DNA from: Tissierellia bacterium
GTDB lineage: Bacteria; Bacillota; Clostridia; Tissierellales; Tepidimicrobiaceae
Length of the DNA: 64,000 nucleotides
Assembly (NCBI GenBank): GCA_012728075.1
Contig: JAAYFV010000166.1
Coordinates: 1 to 64,000, forward strand
Direction of reading: 5' to 3'
Positions within the stretch are counted from its first letter, which is position 1. Each line of letters begins with the position of its first letter. The notes under the pieces are model-generated. The model saw nothing but the letters and a program-made list of their open reading frames with translations, made no database searches and was not told the origin of the DNA. Positions 19,810 to 50,374 of the stretch are shown here, piece after piece. The translations under genes and the position numbers were made by a program.

Positions 19810-21633
19810 TTACCCCAAAACTTCCTTATTCTTCTCCTCTATAAACTGATTGGTATACAAATTATAATAATAACCCTTTTCTTTAATTAATTCCCTATGA
19901 TTACCCTCTTCAATAATTTTTCCATCTTTAATTACTAAAATCCTATCGGCATTTTTTATAGTAGATAATCTATGGGCTATTACAAAACTGGTTTTACCTT
20001 CTAGTACATTTTCTATGGTTTTTTGAATTATCATTTCTGTTTCTGTATCTATGGAGGATGTGGCTTCATCTAGTACAAATATTTTAGGGTTTTTGACGAT
20101 AGCCCTAGCAAAGGAGATCAGCTGTTTTTGGCCAGTGGATAATAAATTTCCTCCTTCGCCTACATTGGTATCATAGCCTTTTTCCATTTTCATAATAAAA
20201 TTATGACTATTGACTAATTTACTAGCTTTTATAATTTCTAAATCTGTGGCATCTAAATGACCATACTTTATATTGTCTTTTATGGTGCCACTAAATAAAT
20301 GGGGAGCTTGTAGCACATAACCTAGATTATCGTGAATCCAAATTTGAGGCATGGTTTTATAATCTATGCCATCTATTAATATTTCACCAGAGGTAGGTTC
20401 ATAAAATCTACAAAGTAAATTTACTATGGTGGATTTTCCTGAGCCAGTTTCTCCAACTAGAGCTATGGTTTCACCAGGTTTTACCTTAAGATTAAAATTC
20501 TCCAAAACCTTTTCTCCATTTTTATAGGCGAAATCTACATTTCTAAATTCAATTTCTCCCTTAATTTCTGGCCAATTTTCTTTTTTGGGGGTAAAGAAGT
20601 CCCCATATTCATTTACTACATCTTCACTATCTATAATATCTGGTACTTCATTTATAAGAGAAAATACTCTTTCAGCTGAGGCCTGTGCCCCTTGAATTTC
20701 TGCAAATACCACTGCTAATTGTCTTACAGGTTCAAAAAACTGAGCAGTATAAGCTATAAAGGCTGCCATAGTACCATAGCTTATGGTGCCTTGTATTACA
20801 TCTTTTCCACCAGAATTTAAAACTAAGGCAGTGCCAATGCTACCTAATACTAAAATTATAGGGAAATATAGAGAAGAAACAATAGTGGCCCTTATGGACT
20901 TTTGTTTCATTTCTTCAGTGATTTCCTTAAATTCCTCTAAATTTATTTCTTCTCGAACTAAAGTTTTAGTAGTCATGGCACCAGATATATCTTCATTATA
21001 AGCAGCAGTTATTTTAGAATTAACATTTCTAACTTCCCTTTGAGCCTTTAATATTTTATTTTGAAAATATGCTGAGGCTATGGCCAAAGGGGGTACTACT
21101 GTTAATGCTATTAAGGCTAATTTAGCATTAAGCCTAAACATGGCAATTACAACTGCCAACATCATGGCAAGCCCCCAGGCAAAGTCCACTATGCCCCAGG
21201 ATAGGGTTTCAGATATACCATTTATATCAGAGGTCATTCTAGCCATTAACCAACCTACAGCTTTTTCATCATAATAGGATAAGGGGAGGATTTGTAATTT
21301 TTCAAATCCTTTTTTTCTAATATCATAAGATACATTAGTTTCCACTTTTCCACCCATAGCTAAAAATAAATATACATTTATACCCTGGAATGCTATAACT
21401 ATAAAAAATAATTTTATAAATTTATTTAATCCTATTAGATTTTTTTCTACTATAAAATTGTCAATGGCATATTTAGTAAATAGGGGAAATACAGAGTCCA
21501 AAGCACCTACAAATACCATAATTATAGCTAGTAGAATAAAATCTCTTTTGTGATTCTTAACTAATTCTAAGAAATTTCTCCATATAGTAATATCAATTTT
21601 CTCATTTTCCAATACTACCACCTCACTAGGCAT
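19810..21633 (-). CDS. Heterodimeric ABC multidrug exporter subunit (BmrD/LmrD/YheH-like)
   Basis: ABC_membrane plus NBD: GETGSGKSTIV, divergent signature LSTGQKQ, Walker B VLDEATSSIDTET. Confidence 0.85.
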   Translation of the reverse strand: MPSEVVVLENEKIDITIWRNFLELVKNHKRDFILLAIIMVFVGALDSVFPLFTKYAIDNFIVEKNLIGLNKFIKLFFIVIAFQGINVYLFLAMGGKVETNVSYDIRKKGFEKLQILPLSYYDEKAVGWLMARMTSDINGISETLSWGIVDFAWGLAMMLAVVIAMFRLNAKLALIALTVVPPLAIASAYFQNKILKAQREVRNVNSKITAAYNEDISGAMTTKTLVREEINLEEFKEITEEMKQKSIRATIVSSLYFPIILVLGSIGTALVLNSGGKDVIQGTISYGTMAAFIAYTAQFFEPVRQLAVVFAEIQGAQASAERVFSLINEVPDIIDSEDVVNEYGDFFTPKKENWPEIKGEIEFRNVDFAYKNGEKVLENFNLKVKPGETIALVGETGSGKSTIVNLLCRFYEPTSGEILIDGIDYKTMPQIWIHDNLGYVLQAPHLFSGTIKDNIKYGHLDATDLEIIKASKLVNSHNFIMKMEKGYDTNVGEGGNLLSTGQKQLISFARAIVKNPKIFVLDEATSSIDTETEMIIQKTIENVLEGKTSFVIAHRLSTIKNADRILVIKDGKIIEEGNHRELIKEKGYYYNLYTNQFIEEKNKEVLG

Positions 21634-23431
21634 GTAATTTTATATCTTCTTCTAAATCCTTCATAGAATTTTGAATTTCATATAATCTTTGATACAATCC
21701 TTTTTCATTTATTAATTTTTCATGATTACCTCTTTGTATTATTCTTCCATTGTCTAAAACTATAATTTCATCGGCCTCAGATACTGTAGATATTCTATGG
21801 GATATTATTATAGTCGTAGATTTATTTTTTCTATTATTTAGGGCTTTCCTAATGGATATATCAGTTTCTGTATCTACAGCAGATAGAGAATCATCAAAGA
21901 CCACAATAGGGCAATCATTTATAATGGTTCTAGCAATGGCAACCCTTTGCTTTTGTCCACCAGATAGGGAAACTCCTCTTTCTCCCACATAGGTATCATA
22001 TCCTTTATCAAAGGATTTAATATCCTGATGGATACTGGCAATTTTAGCAGATTCATAAACCTTTTTATCTTGAATACTAGGATTAGCTAATTTTATATTA
22101 TCTCTAATGGTTTTGGCATATAGGAAAGGTTCTTGTAATACAATTCCTATATTTTTTCTAACCCAAGCCTTATCAATATCTTTTAATTCTTTTCCATCTA
22201 TTAATATGGAACCCCTATTATAATCATAAAGTCTTGCTAATAAATAGACTAAAGAAGATTTGCCAGAACCTGTTGGACCAATTATAGCCACTGTACTACC
22301 AGCCTTTACTGAAAAGGAAATATTGTCAATTACTGGAGTATTCTTTTCATATTCAAAATAAACATTTTCAAATTCAATATTACCTTTAATTTCTGGCTTT
22401 TCATTGTTTCCATTTAAAATTTCTATATTCTCATTAAAAATTTCATCAATTCTTCCTATGGATACTATGGCTTTTCCCATATCTGTTAAAGTTCTTCCCA
22501 TTTGTCTAATAGGCCACAATAACATATTTACATATGTAGAAAAGGCCATTACAGTACCTAGAGATATTTCTCCAGCTACAGCCCAAATACTTCCAAAGAC
22601 TATAGTTAATCCAATTTGTATAAAACAAATAAAATCAGAAGCTCCCCAATATAGAGCTAAATCTTGAATTAATTTATAGGTTTTATCCCTATAGTCTTTA
22701 TTTTTTTCATCAAACTTTTCTATTTCATATTTTTGATTAGCACAGGCCTTTACTACTCTTACACCTGTAAGATTTTCTTGTAGCACTGTAGTTAATTCTG
22801 CCTCTGCTTCATCAGAAGCCTCAAAGGCCTTTTTTACTTTAGAAAAAAATATAAATGCAAATATGAAAATTATAGGCATAGTAGCCATGGAAACTAAAGT
22901 CATTTTTACATTAAGTTTAAACATAGTATAAGATACAAATCCCAACATAAATAGTGAACCAGCCACTTCTACCAATTGTATAGACAAAAATCTTTTTATA
23001 GTATTTACATCTGAAGTACACCTTTGAATTAAATCTCCCGTCTCTGCTTTTACATGGTATTCATAAGGGAGTCTTTGAATTTGATCATATAGGGAATCCC
23101 TAATGTTTTTTGCAGTATTTTCAGCTGTTTTACTTGCTAAGGTATTTCTAAAATAAAGCAATATACCTCTTAAAATTGCAATAAATACTAATAGTACACC
23201 AATAATCCAAAGATTTTTTCTTAGATAAGCTCTACCTCCTATATATTGAATTAATCTTTCTAAAAAGTTAGAACCTATAGGTTCACTGCCAATAATAGAG
23301 TCTATAGTAGTTCTAATGATAAGAGGTGATACTATAGTGACCATCTGAGAAAGGATGATACATATCATAGCTAATACATAAATTCCTTTGTATCCGGTCA
23401 TAAACTTAAACAGTTTTTTAATTTCTTTCAT
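21626..23431 (-). CDS. Heterodimeric ABC multidrug exporter subunit (BmrC/LmrC/YheI-like)
   Basis: GPTGSGKSSLV, canonical LSGGQKQR, degenerate Walker B VVFDDSLSAVDTET; overlaps partner gene by 8 bp. Confidence 0.85.
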   Translation of the reverse strand: MKEIKKLFKFMTGYKGIYVLAMICIILSQMVTIVSPLIIRTTIDSIIGSEPIGSNFLERLIQYIGGRAYLRKNLWIIGVLLVFIAILRGILLYFRNTLASKTAENTAKNIRDSLYDQIQRLPYEYHVKAETGDLIQRCTSDVNTIKRFLSIQLVEVAGSLFMLGFVSYTMFKLNVKMTLVSMATMPIIFIFAFIFFSKVKKAFEASDEAEAELTTVLQENLTGVRVVKACANQKYEIEKFDEKNKDYRDKTYKLIQDLALYWGASDFICFIQIGLTIVFGSIWAVAGEISLGTVMAFSTYVNMLLWPIRQMGRTLTDMGKAIVSIGRIDEIFNENIEILNGNNEKPEIKGNIEFENVYFEYEKNTPVIDNISFSVKAGSTVAIIGPTGSGKSSLVYLLARLYDYNRGSILIDGKELKDIDKAWVRKNIGIVLQEPFLYAKTIRDNIKLANPSIQDKKVYESAKIASIHQDIKSFDKGYDTYVGERGVSLSGGQKQRVAIARTIINDCPIVVFDDSLSAVDTETDISIRKALNNRKNKSTTIIISHRISTVSEADEIIVLDNGRIIQRGNHEKLINEKGLYQRLYEIQNSMKDLEEDIKLHA

Positions 23432-23456: not shown

Positions 23457-23500
23457 AAAAAAACCATAAGATGTGACAAAAAGTCTACAATCCTACGGTT
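23457..23500 (-). terminator. Second leader terminator (T2) upstream of ABC exporter
   Basis: Minus strand AACCGTAGGATTGTAGAC-ttttt-GTCACATCTTATGGTT followed by a seven-T run; G-U pairs and bulges. Confidence 0.65.
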
Positions 23501-23566
23501 TTTATACCATGATAGCATTATAGGCATAGCTATCCTTTGGCATATAAATAAAGCAATTATTAGAAT

Positions 23567-23597
23567 AAAAAAACCATAGGCAAGCACGCCTATGGTT
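23567..23597 (-). terminator. First leader terminator (T1)
   Basis: Minus strand perfect 10-bp stem AACCATAGGC-gtgctt-GCCTATGGTT followed by T-run. Confidence 0.85.
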
Positions 23598-23614
23598 ATA
23601 TAGACAAAAATTAA

Positions 23615-23695
23615 TTATACTAAGGTATTCATAGGTCGTGCCATTGTTTTTATATAGTTTTCTTTAGCTTGTAATAGATTTGTTATTATGATCAT
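23615..23695 (-). CDS. Unannotated 26-aa leader peptide MIIITNLLQAKENYIKTMARPMNTLV of ABC exporter operon
   Basis: Minus strand AAGGAGG RBS 8 nt before ATG; preceded by TTGTAT-N16-TATAAT; followed by T1 and T2. Not in ORF track because of its length. Confidence 0.7.
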   Translation of the reverse strand: MIIITNLLQAKENYIKTMARPMNTLV

Positions 23696-23798
23696 CTTCA
23701 CGACCTCCTTACTAAACTATCAATATGATTATATTATATATGGTATTTACAAAAATACAACAATATTCATACTTTTGTAATACAATTGTAATAATTAT

Positions 23799-25178
23799 CT
23801 AACTTAAACTTCTTCCCAATACTACTCCATTTACACTAGCTTGCATAAGTCCCCTTGTAATTCCTGCCCCATCTCCTCCAACATATAAACCTTTTATATT
23901 AGTTTCAAAATTATTATTGGTGATTACCTTGTTAGAATAAAATTTAACTTCCACACCATATAAGAGGGTTTCATCACTAGCAAGTCCAGGAGCCACGTTA
24001 TCTAAGGCTATTAACATCTCATCTACATCTTTCATAATTCTATAGGGAAGTACCAAACTTAAATCTCCTGGCACAGCATCTTTTAAAGTGGGTATTATAT
24101 TGTTTCGATATAATCTTTCATCATTAGTTCTTCTACCTCTTTTAAAATCCCCATATCTTTGAATTAACACTTTGTTTCCAGAGAGCATATTTCCAAGTTT
24201 TGCAATATGCATACCATATTCTATAGGAGAATTAAAAGGCTTTGTAAAATGTTTGGTAACCAATAGTGCAAAATTGGTATTTTCAGATTTTAAACTTTCA
24301 GATTTGTAACTATGACCATTAACAACTGCTAAGTTACCATCATAGTATTCGGTAGATACTTCACCTGATGGATTAGTGCAGAAGGTTCGTACTTTATCAT
24401 CAAAGGTGGGAGTATAATATATTAATTTACTTTCATACATGGCATTATTCAATTCTTCCATTATTTCATTTCTAGTTTCTACCCTAACGCCTATGTCCAC
24501 ATCTCCTGTTTCTGTATTTATACCATGTTTAATACACAAATCTTTTAACCAATCAGAGCCATCTCTTCCAACTGCTATTACCACTTGGTCTGAATAGTAT
24601 TCTTTATCAGCTATAACACCTTTTATATTTCTATTTTCATCTAATATTATGTCCTTTACTGGATTTTTAAAGCTTAAATTTACTTCAATTTCCTTTAGAT
24701 ATTTTTCTATACGCGTATATATAGCATAACCTTCTTCTGTACCCATATGCCTAATAGGACATTCTACCAATTTTAGATTACTTCTAATTGCTTTTTTTCT
24801 TATTTCCTCAATTTCCTTTTCTTTATCTATTCCATATATGGTAGTATCAGCACCAAATTTTAAATATATATTATCTACATAATCAATTAATTCTTGAGTT
24901 TCTTCATAACCTAAATATTTAGGTAAGTTTCCTCCCACATCAGGAGAAAGGGATAATTTACCATCGGAATAAGCTCCAGCTCCTGCAAAGCCAGTGGTTA
25001 TATTACAGGGTTTACAATGTGCACATACTCCCCTTCTTCTTTTAGGGCATATCCTTTTTTCAATGGGATTACCTTTTTCTAGCATTAAAACCTTTTTGTT
25101 AGGATTGTGCTTTTTTATCTCCAGTGCTGTAAATATACCACAAGGTCCAGCACCTACAATTATAACATCATAGTCCAT
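23799..25178 (-). CDS. NAD(P)/FAD-dependent dehydrogenase, COG2509 type
   Basis: DVIIVGAGPCGIFTALEIKK, CPKRRRGVCAHCKPCNITTGFAGAGAYSDGKLSL, GLYVGGDGAGITRGLMQA. Confidence 0.85.
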   Translation of the reverse strand: MDYDVIIVGAGPCGIFTALEIKKHNPNKKVLMLEKGNPIEKRICPKRRRGVCAHCKPCNITTGFAGAGAYSDGKLSLSPDVGGNLPKYLGYEETQELIDYVDNIYLKFGADTTIYGIDKEKEIEEIRKKAIRSNLKLVECPIRHMGTEEGYAIYTRIEKYLKEIEVNLSFKNPVKDIILDENRNIKGVIADKEYYSDQVVIAVGRDGSDWLKDLCIKHGINTETGDVDIGVRVETRNEIMEELNNAMYESKLIYYTPTFDDKVRTFCTNPSGEVSTEYYDGNLAVVNGHSYKSESLKSENTNFALLVTKHFTKPFNSPIEYGMHIAKLGNMLSGNKVLIQRYGDFKRGRRTNDERLYRNNIIPTLKDAVPGDLSLVLPYRIMKDVDEMLIALDNVAPGLASDETLLYGVEVKFYSNKVITNNNFETNIKGLYVGGDGAGITRGLMQASVNGVVLGRSLS

Positions 25179-36942: not shown

Positions 36943-36998
36943 GTTTTTCATTTTAACCAATAATATAGTTAACTATATTATTGGTTAAAATGAAAAAC
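36943..36998. repeat. Core of palindrome axis (centre 36970/36971)
   Basis: TTTTTCATTTTAACCAATAATATAGTT|AACTATATTATTGGTTAAAATGAAAAA, no spacer. Confidence 0.95.
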
Positions 36999-50142: not shown

Positions 50143-50245
50143 ATAATTATTACAATTGTATTACAAAAGTATGAATATTGTTGTATTTTTGTAAATACCA
50201 TATATAATATAATCATATTGATAGTTTAGTAAGGAGGTCGTGAAG

Positions 50246-50326
50246 ATGATCATAATAACAAATCTATTACAAGCTAAAGAAAACTATATAAAAACAATGG
50301 CACGACCTATGAATACCTTAGTATAA
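50246..50326 (+). CDS. Leader peptide MIIITNLLQAKENYIKTMARPMNTLV (mirror copy)
   Basis: Mirror of 23615-23695; promoter TTGTAT 50181-50186 / TATAAT 50203-50208, RBS AAGGAGG 50231-50237. Confidence 0.7.
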   Translation: MIIITNLLQAKENYIKTMARPMNTLV

Positions 50327-50343
50327 TTAATTTTTGTCTATAT

Positions 50344-50374
50344 AACCATAGGCGTGCTTGCCTATGGTTTTTTT
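50344..50374 (+). terminator. Leader terminator T1 (mirror copy)
   Basis: AACCATAGGC-gtgctt-GCCTATGGTT plus T-run. Confidence 0.85.

Follow-up and report, generated by a model that had tools for sequence, protein, structure and literature searches.

The exporter locus and its leader

The minus strand of the window (the whole 64,000-nucleotide stretch of DNA that was analysed) carries, in order, a FAD-dependent oxidoreductase-like gene, a candidate promoter, a short leader ORF, two terminators (T1 and T2) and two overlapping genes for ABC half-exporters (Table 1). Both terminators lie upstream of the exporter ribosome-binding site (RBS). P-glycoprotein, Sav1866, TM_0288 and B. subtilis YheH (BmrD) are among the structurally solved relatives of the two half-exporters. 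The candidate promoter, which is absent from a consensus promoter scan of the window, was read by eye, and a TTG-rich hexamer with a TATAAT-like box was seen in the same manner at the corresponding place in homologues. Upstream of it, TACAATTGTA (23781-23790) lies inside a conserved ATTACAATTGTATTACAAA in most close homologues and looks like a BlaI/MecI-type operator (TACA-N2-TGTA).

The contig as a whole (73,940 bp) is exactly its own reverse complement, with the centre of the palindrome at 36970/36971; within the window this produces a perfect 27-kb inverted repeat (9941-36970 versus 36971-64000). The palindrome is probably an assembly artefact. Anything past 36970 repeats the first part of the contig and should not be counted twice. 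This bears on the mirror copy of the leader pairing (50300-50311 with 50347-50357) listed in a first-pass annotation of the same DNA: it is identical letter for letter, but it is not independent, since the contig is palindromic and G001, a relative assembled as one contig, has a single copy. In the nearest relative (L077, G001:C1, about 1899578-1899843) the leader, T1 and T2 are intact, and a deletion after T2 seems to take out the exporter RBS and the first 29 codons.

Table 1. Features of the exporter locus and its leader in the window
Feature	Coordinates	Strand	Remarks
FAD-dependent oxidoreductase-like gene	23799-25178	-	upstream of leader; stop at 23799
Candidate promoter	23733..23760	-	TTGTAT, 16 nt, TATAAT; putative, read by eye
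Leader RBS	23699..23708	-	GGAGGTCGTG; from sequence
Segment 1	23699-23705	-	GGUCGUG, within leader RBS; complementary to CACGACC; covariation
Leader ORF	23615..23695	-	26 codons, MIIITNLLQAKENYIKTMARPMNTLV*; from sequence
Segment 2	23630..23641	-	GCACGACCTATG; partner of segment 1 (via 23634-23640) or segment 3
Terminator T1	23572..23597	-	11 pairs then U tract, -16.0 kcal/mol; strong intrinsic terminator by sequence
Segment 3	23584..23594	-	CATAGGCGTGC; T1 5' arm plus loop; antiterminator partner of segment 2
Segment 4	23572-23582	-	T1 3' arm; complementary to segment 5
Terminator T2	23459..23503	-	intrinsic, with U tract
Segment 5	23490-23503	-	T2 5' arm; complementary to segment 4
Segment 6		-	T2 3' arm
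First putatively regulated gene	21626..23431	-	ABC half-exporter (ABC_membrane + ABC_tran), 601 aa; BmrC-like position
Second putatively regulated gene	19810..21633	-	ABC half-exporter, 607 aa; BmrD-like position
Mirror copy, leader to T1	50230..50373	+	same DNA re-read through palindromic contig

The segments of the leader and terminators can pair in two exclusive sets, 1:2, 3:4 and 5:6 versus 2:3 and 4:5. The first-pass annotation had proposed the pairing of segment 2 (also written GCACGACCUAUG) with the 5' arm and loop of T1. We recovered it on the minus strand as 11 pairs with one bulged A and an RNAduplex energy of -15.5 kcal/mol. Between the leader and the T1 arm the duplex energy is -19.1 kcal/mol; 5000 dinucleotide-shuffled leaders averaged -8.0, and not one was as strong. 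The region folds with z = -5.1, and its minimum free energy structure includes the proposed antiterminator. Also as annotated, 2:3 and T1 exclude each other, both using 23584-23594. Segment 1, which faces the in-leader CACGACC of segment 2, lies in the leader RBS, a feature of which the annotation made no use. The locus has a translatable short leader ORF with an RBS ahead of an intrinsic terminator, an antiterminator (2:3) exclusive with that terminator, and an anti-antiterminator (1:2) that overlaps the antiterminator, excludes it and covaries.

Homologous leaders and covariation of three helices

Related leaders turned up in several genera when the family was searched at the DNA level. We then used two covariance models, R1 (the T1 hairpin only) and R2 (R1 plus 1:2), the E-values of both being rough. 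Within the order, 46 of the 249 genomes had R1 matches. R2, whose leaders are selected partly for 1:2, matched in 56 of 248 genomes in the order, 28 of 391 in the class, 15 of 399 in the phylum and 48 of 101 genomes of a Bacillaceae-like family. A pattern scan of named genomes pointed to Geosporobacter ferrireducens, Alkaliphilus transvaalensis, Tissierella sp., a Halanaerobiales MAG and others; among its 64 matches the high-G+C ones were presumed to be chance, and the lower-G+C L036 and L064 were without the terminator or leader layout. R1 matches L103, L114, L115b, L119, L120 and L122 were excluded as relics, partial or false, and L138, L144-L146, L149 and L158 fit the architecture poorly. 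The resulting set comprises 85 loci, 82 of them distinct. Leader ORFs of 20-37 codons occupy the corresponding place in the homologues, and in 65 of 79 a second terminator follows T1 by no more than 130 nt.

One of the excluded matches, L103 (G012), is a relic that keeps T1 and part of segment 2 behind apparently the same upstream gene; it has lost the RBS and has no exporter ORF that we could find downstream. In the Bacillaceae-like family, the ABC exporters found with the window protein (33-37% identity) had no recognisable copy of the attenuator, and 20 exporter loci from this family gave no significant R2 match. Rfam 15 had zero matches at the gathering score in the window and 20 homologue loci; relaxed thresholds yielded only sub-threshold sRNA chance matches.

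Covariation was scored in an alignment of 48 sequences fitted to R1, with neither helix modelled. Standard pairs fill 97.6% of cells for 1:2 and 93.3% for 2:3, and each helix has a covariation score higher than all 500 shuffles. Sliding the 1:2 partner by one to three columns left 5-64% of cells paired. Comparison by class gave the same picture: with 82 loci sorted by RBS into 17 classes, the fit of each RBS is better to its own leader than to those of others (0 of 20,000 permutations), as is that of the partners in 2:3 (15 T1 classes) and 4:5 (13 classes), again with 0 of 20,000 in either case, although permutations and shuffles alike remove shared ancestry only incompletely. A strong 4:5 helix is present in 60 of the 65 homologues having T2, and in 75 of 79 the helices 1:2 and 2:3 share nucleotides.

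The replacements in 1:2 are diverse; the RBS/leader pairs include GGUCGUG/CACGACC, GGCCGUG/CGCGGCC, GGUCGUU/AACGACC, GGCCGUA/UACGGCC, GGUAGGG/CCCUGCC, GGUCGAAU/AUUCGGCC and GGUCAUGA/UCAUGACC. The terminator arms CAUAGG, CGCAGG, CACGGG and CAUCGG are each matched by their own leader, and in L104 and L116 several tandem terminators share the altered core. The pairing claimed at the outset, and its exclusion of T1, are thus kept across homologues with compensatory changes.

Segment 2 is conserved as RNA

The first-pass annotation described the antiterminator strand as leader codons for Ala-Arg-Pro-Met. Of the 74 loci whose 1:2 helix is clear, 51 have the paired CC at codon positions 1-2 (Arg-Pro), and the other two frames account for 11 and 12. 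The latter encode HDL, GL, TA, TT and others, in several lineages, and Met is often replaced. Since segment 2 occurs in all three frames, it is the RNA pairing, and not an Arg-Pro-Met peptide, that is conserved; the annotated codons matter mainly as RNA. A preference for the Arg-Pro frame remains, for which we offer no explanation beyond ancestry.

The frames also bear on an arrest-peptide attenuator, in which nascent ...Arg-Pro-Met would itself halt translation, whether or not a drug is present, and the halted ribosome would set the RNA fold. Arg-Pro is indeed in frame more often than the one third expected if frame were irrelevant. However, the remaining 23 homologues keep these paired nucleotides while reading them in one or other of the two alternative frames, and the Met of the supposed peptide is variable. 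Moreover, a stall at RPM would place the ribosome on segment 2, which favours T1 and not read-through. We dropped this reading once the other frames of segment 2 had appeared and consider it unlikely.

The position of segment 2 is fixed relative to the end of the leader. The distance from the paired CC to the leader stop has a median of 14 nt (range 7-31), whereas that from the leader start is variable (42 to 96 nt). Given the usual footprint, the short distance to the stop implies that a terminating ribosome would cover segment 2. T1 starts after the stop, at a median of 21 nt in the homologues.

Folding with a ribosome on the leader

We modelled the ribosome as an assumed 32-nt footprint moved codon by codon over RNA at folding equilibrium, a model that leaves kinetic folding, pausing and RNA-binding proteins outside. 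For the window transcript through T1, the probability of T1 was 0.00-0.03 with the ribosome at codons 1-4, about 0.95 elsewhere and 0.85 without a ribosome. In RNAs of 79 homologues cut before the T1 3' arm, the probability of the antiterminator was 0.98 at codons 1-3, 0.70 at codons 7-9 and 0.12 at the last three; without a ribosome it was 0.68, rising to 0.95 with segment 1 removed in silico. For the second step, the probability of 4:5 was 0.62 for an early versus 0.20 for a late ribosome in the 65 homologues with T2, and 0.99 versus 0.003 in the window.

According to the first-pass annotation, a ribosome completing the leader would mask segment 2 so that T1 forms, and one stalled earlier would leave it free. 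The former agrees with the low antiterminator probability at the last codons. The latter applies to codons 1-4, but "earlier" is too loose, as in the finished T1 transcript of the window T1 dominates at all other positions. The complementarity and covariation of segment 1 with segment 2 carry a further implication, namely that the RBS must be covered for read-through. Overall, the folding model predicts read-through to be favoured with a ribosome on codons 1-3 and termination once the leader is finished.

Two results qualify this prediction. In finished T1 transcripts the early-ribosome effect was clear in only 33 of 79 homologues, so in many of them the antiterminator must win by forming first. 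In addition, the window RNA cut before the T1 3' arm favours the antiterminator even without a ribosome (0.99), and basal repression would therefore need either 1:2 forming first or translating ribosomes.

A probable ribosome-position-sensing attenuator

As read from the sequence, the segments with their complementarity and covariation, together with their constant position relative to start and stop, point to a ribosome-position-sensing transcription attenuator that controls a two-gene multidrug ABC exporter. We put the probability of this reading at about 0.8. From it we infer how the switch would work in the cell, what would induce it and what the exporter would carry. In the terminating fold, segment 1 would pair with segment 2, both T1 (3:4) and T2 (5:6) would form, and polymerase would stop. 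In the read-through fold, segment 2 would pair with the T1 5' arm, and the freed segment 4 would pair with the T2 5' arm, so that both terminators would fail in domino fashion. A ribosome held at the start or on the first three or four codons would cover segment 1 and leave segment 2 free, giving read-through. A ribosome finishing the leader would cover segment 2 and allow T1, and a free RBS would make 1:2 possible.

The signal is probably inhibited initiation or early elongation, caused for example by a ribosome-targeting drug that the exporter might remove. The switch appears to turn on the exporter operon when a ribosome stalls at the start of the short leader gene, and matched base changes appear to keep it across many Bacillota, ahead of exporters and other apparent stress genes. 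The originally annotated pairing is right and, with the homologues, well supported; the mechanism additionally needs the RBS, T2 and the early-stall rule.

Could the RNA act mainly on translation instead, with 1:2 hiding the leader RBS or the terminators hiding downstream sites, and with termination hardly affected? Part of the Shine-Dalgarno sequence falls within segment 1, so 1:2 must lower leader initiation, and the regulation of cplR in C. difficile is largely translational (PMC10201436). On the other hand, both T1 and T2 have the U tract of an intrinsic terminator and lie upstream of the exporter RBS, and most homologues retain a second terminator whose arm matches. We therefore regard a mainly translational role as quite unlikely.

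Comparison with known attenuators

In the E. coli trp attenuator, the ribosome chooses among exclusive 1:2, 2:3 and 3:4 pairings. The proposed attenuator shares exclusive pairings among which the ribosome would choose, but segment 1 is the RBS and not a run of sensing codons, no sensing codon is repeated, and there is an extra 4:5 step to a second terminator.

Closer parallels are found among leaders that respond to antibiotics. The B. subtilis vmlR leader, with the uORF MIN, has an anti-antiterminator, an antiterminator and a terminator and is induced by 50S drugs; an early stall blocks the anti-antiterminator, the antiterminator forms and the intrinsic terminator fails (PMC9226507). We propose the same course here by analogy. 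In vmlR, however, the three-codon uORF lies inside SL-1 and the Shine-Dalgarno sequence is described as single-stranded, whereas here the RBS itself supplies one anti-antiterminator strand, segment 2 lies close to the stop of a leader of 20-37 codons, and both terminators have the same stem. vmlR also encodes an ABC-F protein, while the genes downstream here are mostly ABC half-exporters.

The B. subtilis bmrB-bmrCD operon is subject to ribosome-mediated attenuation that needs leader translation and is induced by 50S drugs (PMC4191407). The same three structures precede a heterodimeric multidrug ABC exporter, as in our case, but in bmrB the terminator is inside the 53-codon ORF, whose nt 60-162 include all three structures (PMC4191407). 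Here T1 and T2 come after the leader stop and the RBS participates. As the terminator is not inside the leader ORF, we do not class the leader as a bmrB leader, from which it is set apart by the published bmrB layout.

The third parallel is clostridial. The cplR leader of Clostridioides difficile, with the uORF MRI, is induced by lincomycin and retapamulin, and the uORF lies within a 5' hairpin accompanied by a terminator and an antiterminator (PMC10201436). It differs in its three-codon uORF, in a terminator hairpin that also hides the Shine-Dalgarno sequence of the main gene, and in controlling an ABC-F protein. By analogy, we would place the proposed attenuator within ribosome-mediated attenuation of the vmlR/bmrB kind, distinguished by the RBS strand, the control segment at the leader end and two linked terminators.

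Genes behind the proposed attenuator

At about 49 of the 85 loci, the leader is followed by an ABC exporter that shares at least 40% identity with the first one in the window. Other loci are followed by genes for EamA transporters, MFS transporters, ABC ATPases, other ABC exporters, GNAT-domain proteins and YrzI-family peptides. Of the ten loci that we read in the Bacillaceae-like family, most lie ahead of YrzI-like genes, with an RBS of the GGUCGAAU type and a segment 2 of the AUUCGACC type.

Such a range of genes speaks against a trp/his-type attenuator that reads the supply of Arg, Pro or Met. What would suit it is the layout, with a leader ORF and then mutually exclusive hairpins upstream of an operon. 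Nevertheless, the downstream genes are not biosynthetic, the leader peptides contain no run of codons for a single amino acid, and the codons of homologues differ or shift frame, which makes amino-acid sensing very unlikely. It is scarcely credible that T1 and T2, although they come after the stop of the FAD gene, are merely its ordinary tandem terminators with an accidental leader ORF and pairings, given the covariation of three helices, the conserved RBS and leader ORF, and recurrence ahead of unrelated genes.

For the ribosome-position-sensing attenuator, the wider proposal is an undescribed, Bacillota-wide class in which the RBS is the anti-antiterminator strand, the control segment lies near the leader stop, and at least two same-stem terminators act in domino. 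It would serve exporters, EamA and MFS transporters, GNAT-domain proteins and YrzI peptides as a common translation-stress regulon. We think that such a class probably exists, though with less assurance than for the attenuator itself. A literature search, with most subscription journals outside its reach, found no description of this architecture. If the proposal is right, one sequence-defined RNA element predicts which uncharacterised genes of Clostridia and Bacilli answer stalled ribosomes. It also makes specific mechanistic predictions: the RBS as sensing strand, the report of early stalls only and a coupled terminator pair. In B. subtilis, yrzI and bmrCD mRNAs both rise upon tRNA maturase depletion, when tRNA maturation fails (PMC10100781), an only suggestive pointer to ribosome-targeted induction.

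Loci L171-L190 of the Bacillaceae-like family show the same attenuator architecture on YrzI-type small-peptide operons. Behind the attenuator at L038, L104, L115 and L116 are clusters of short ORFs (about 25-60 codons), several of which have a common G-[LF]-[DE]-[EQ]-Y-x-[KR]-[IL]-E motif. GNAT-domain proteins of up to 843 aa follow it at L110, L115, L147, L155, L161 and L167, in different genomes, with the recurring N-terminus IKIVE..YA.S.A.MWN.S. Finally, at L117 (G041) the attenuator and an MFS transporter gene are present as two copies side by side.
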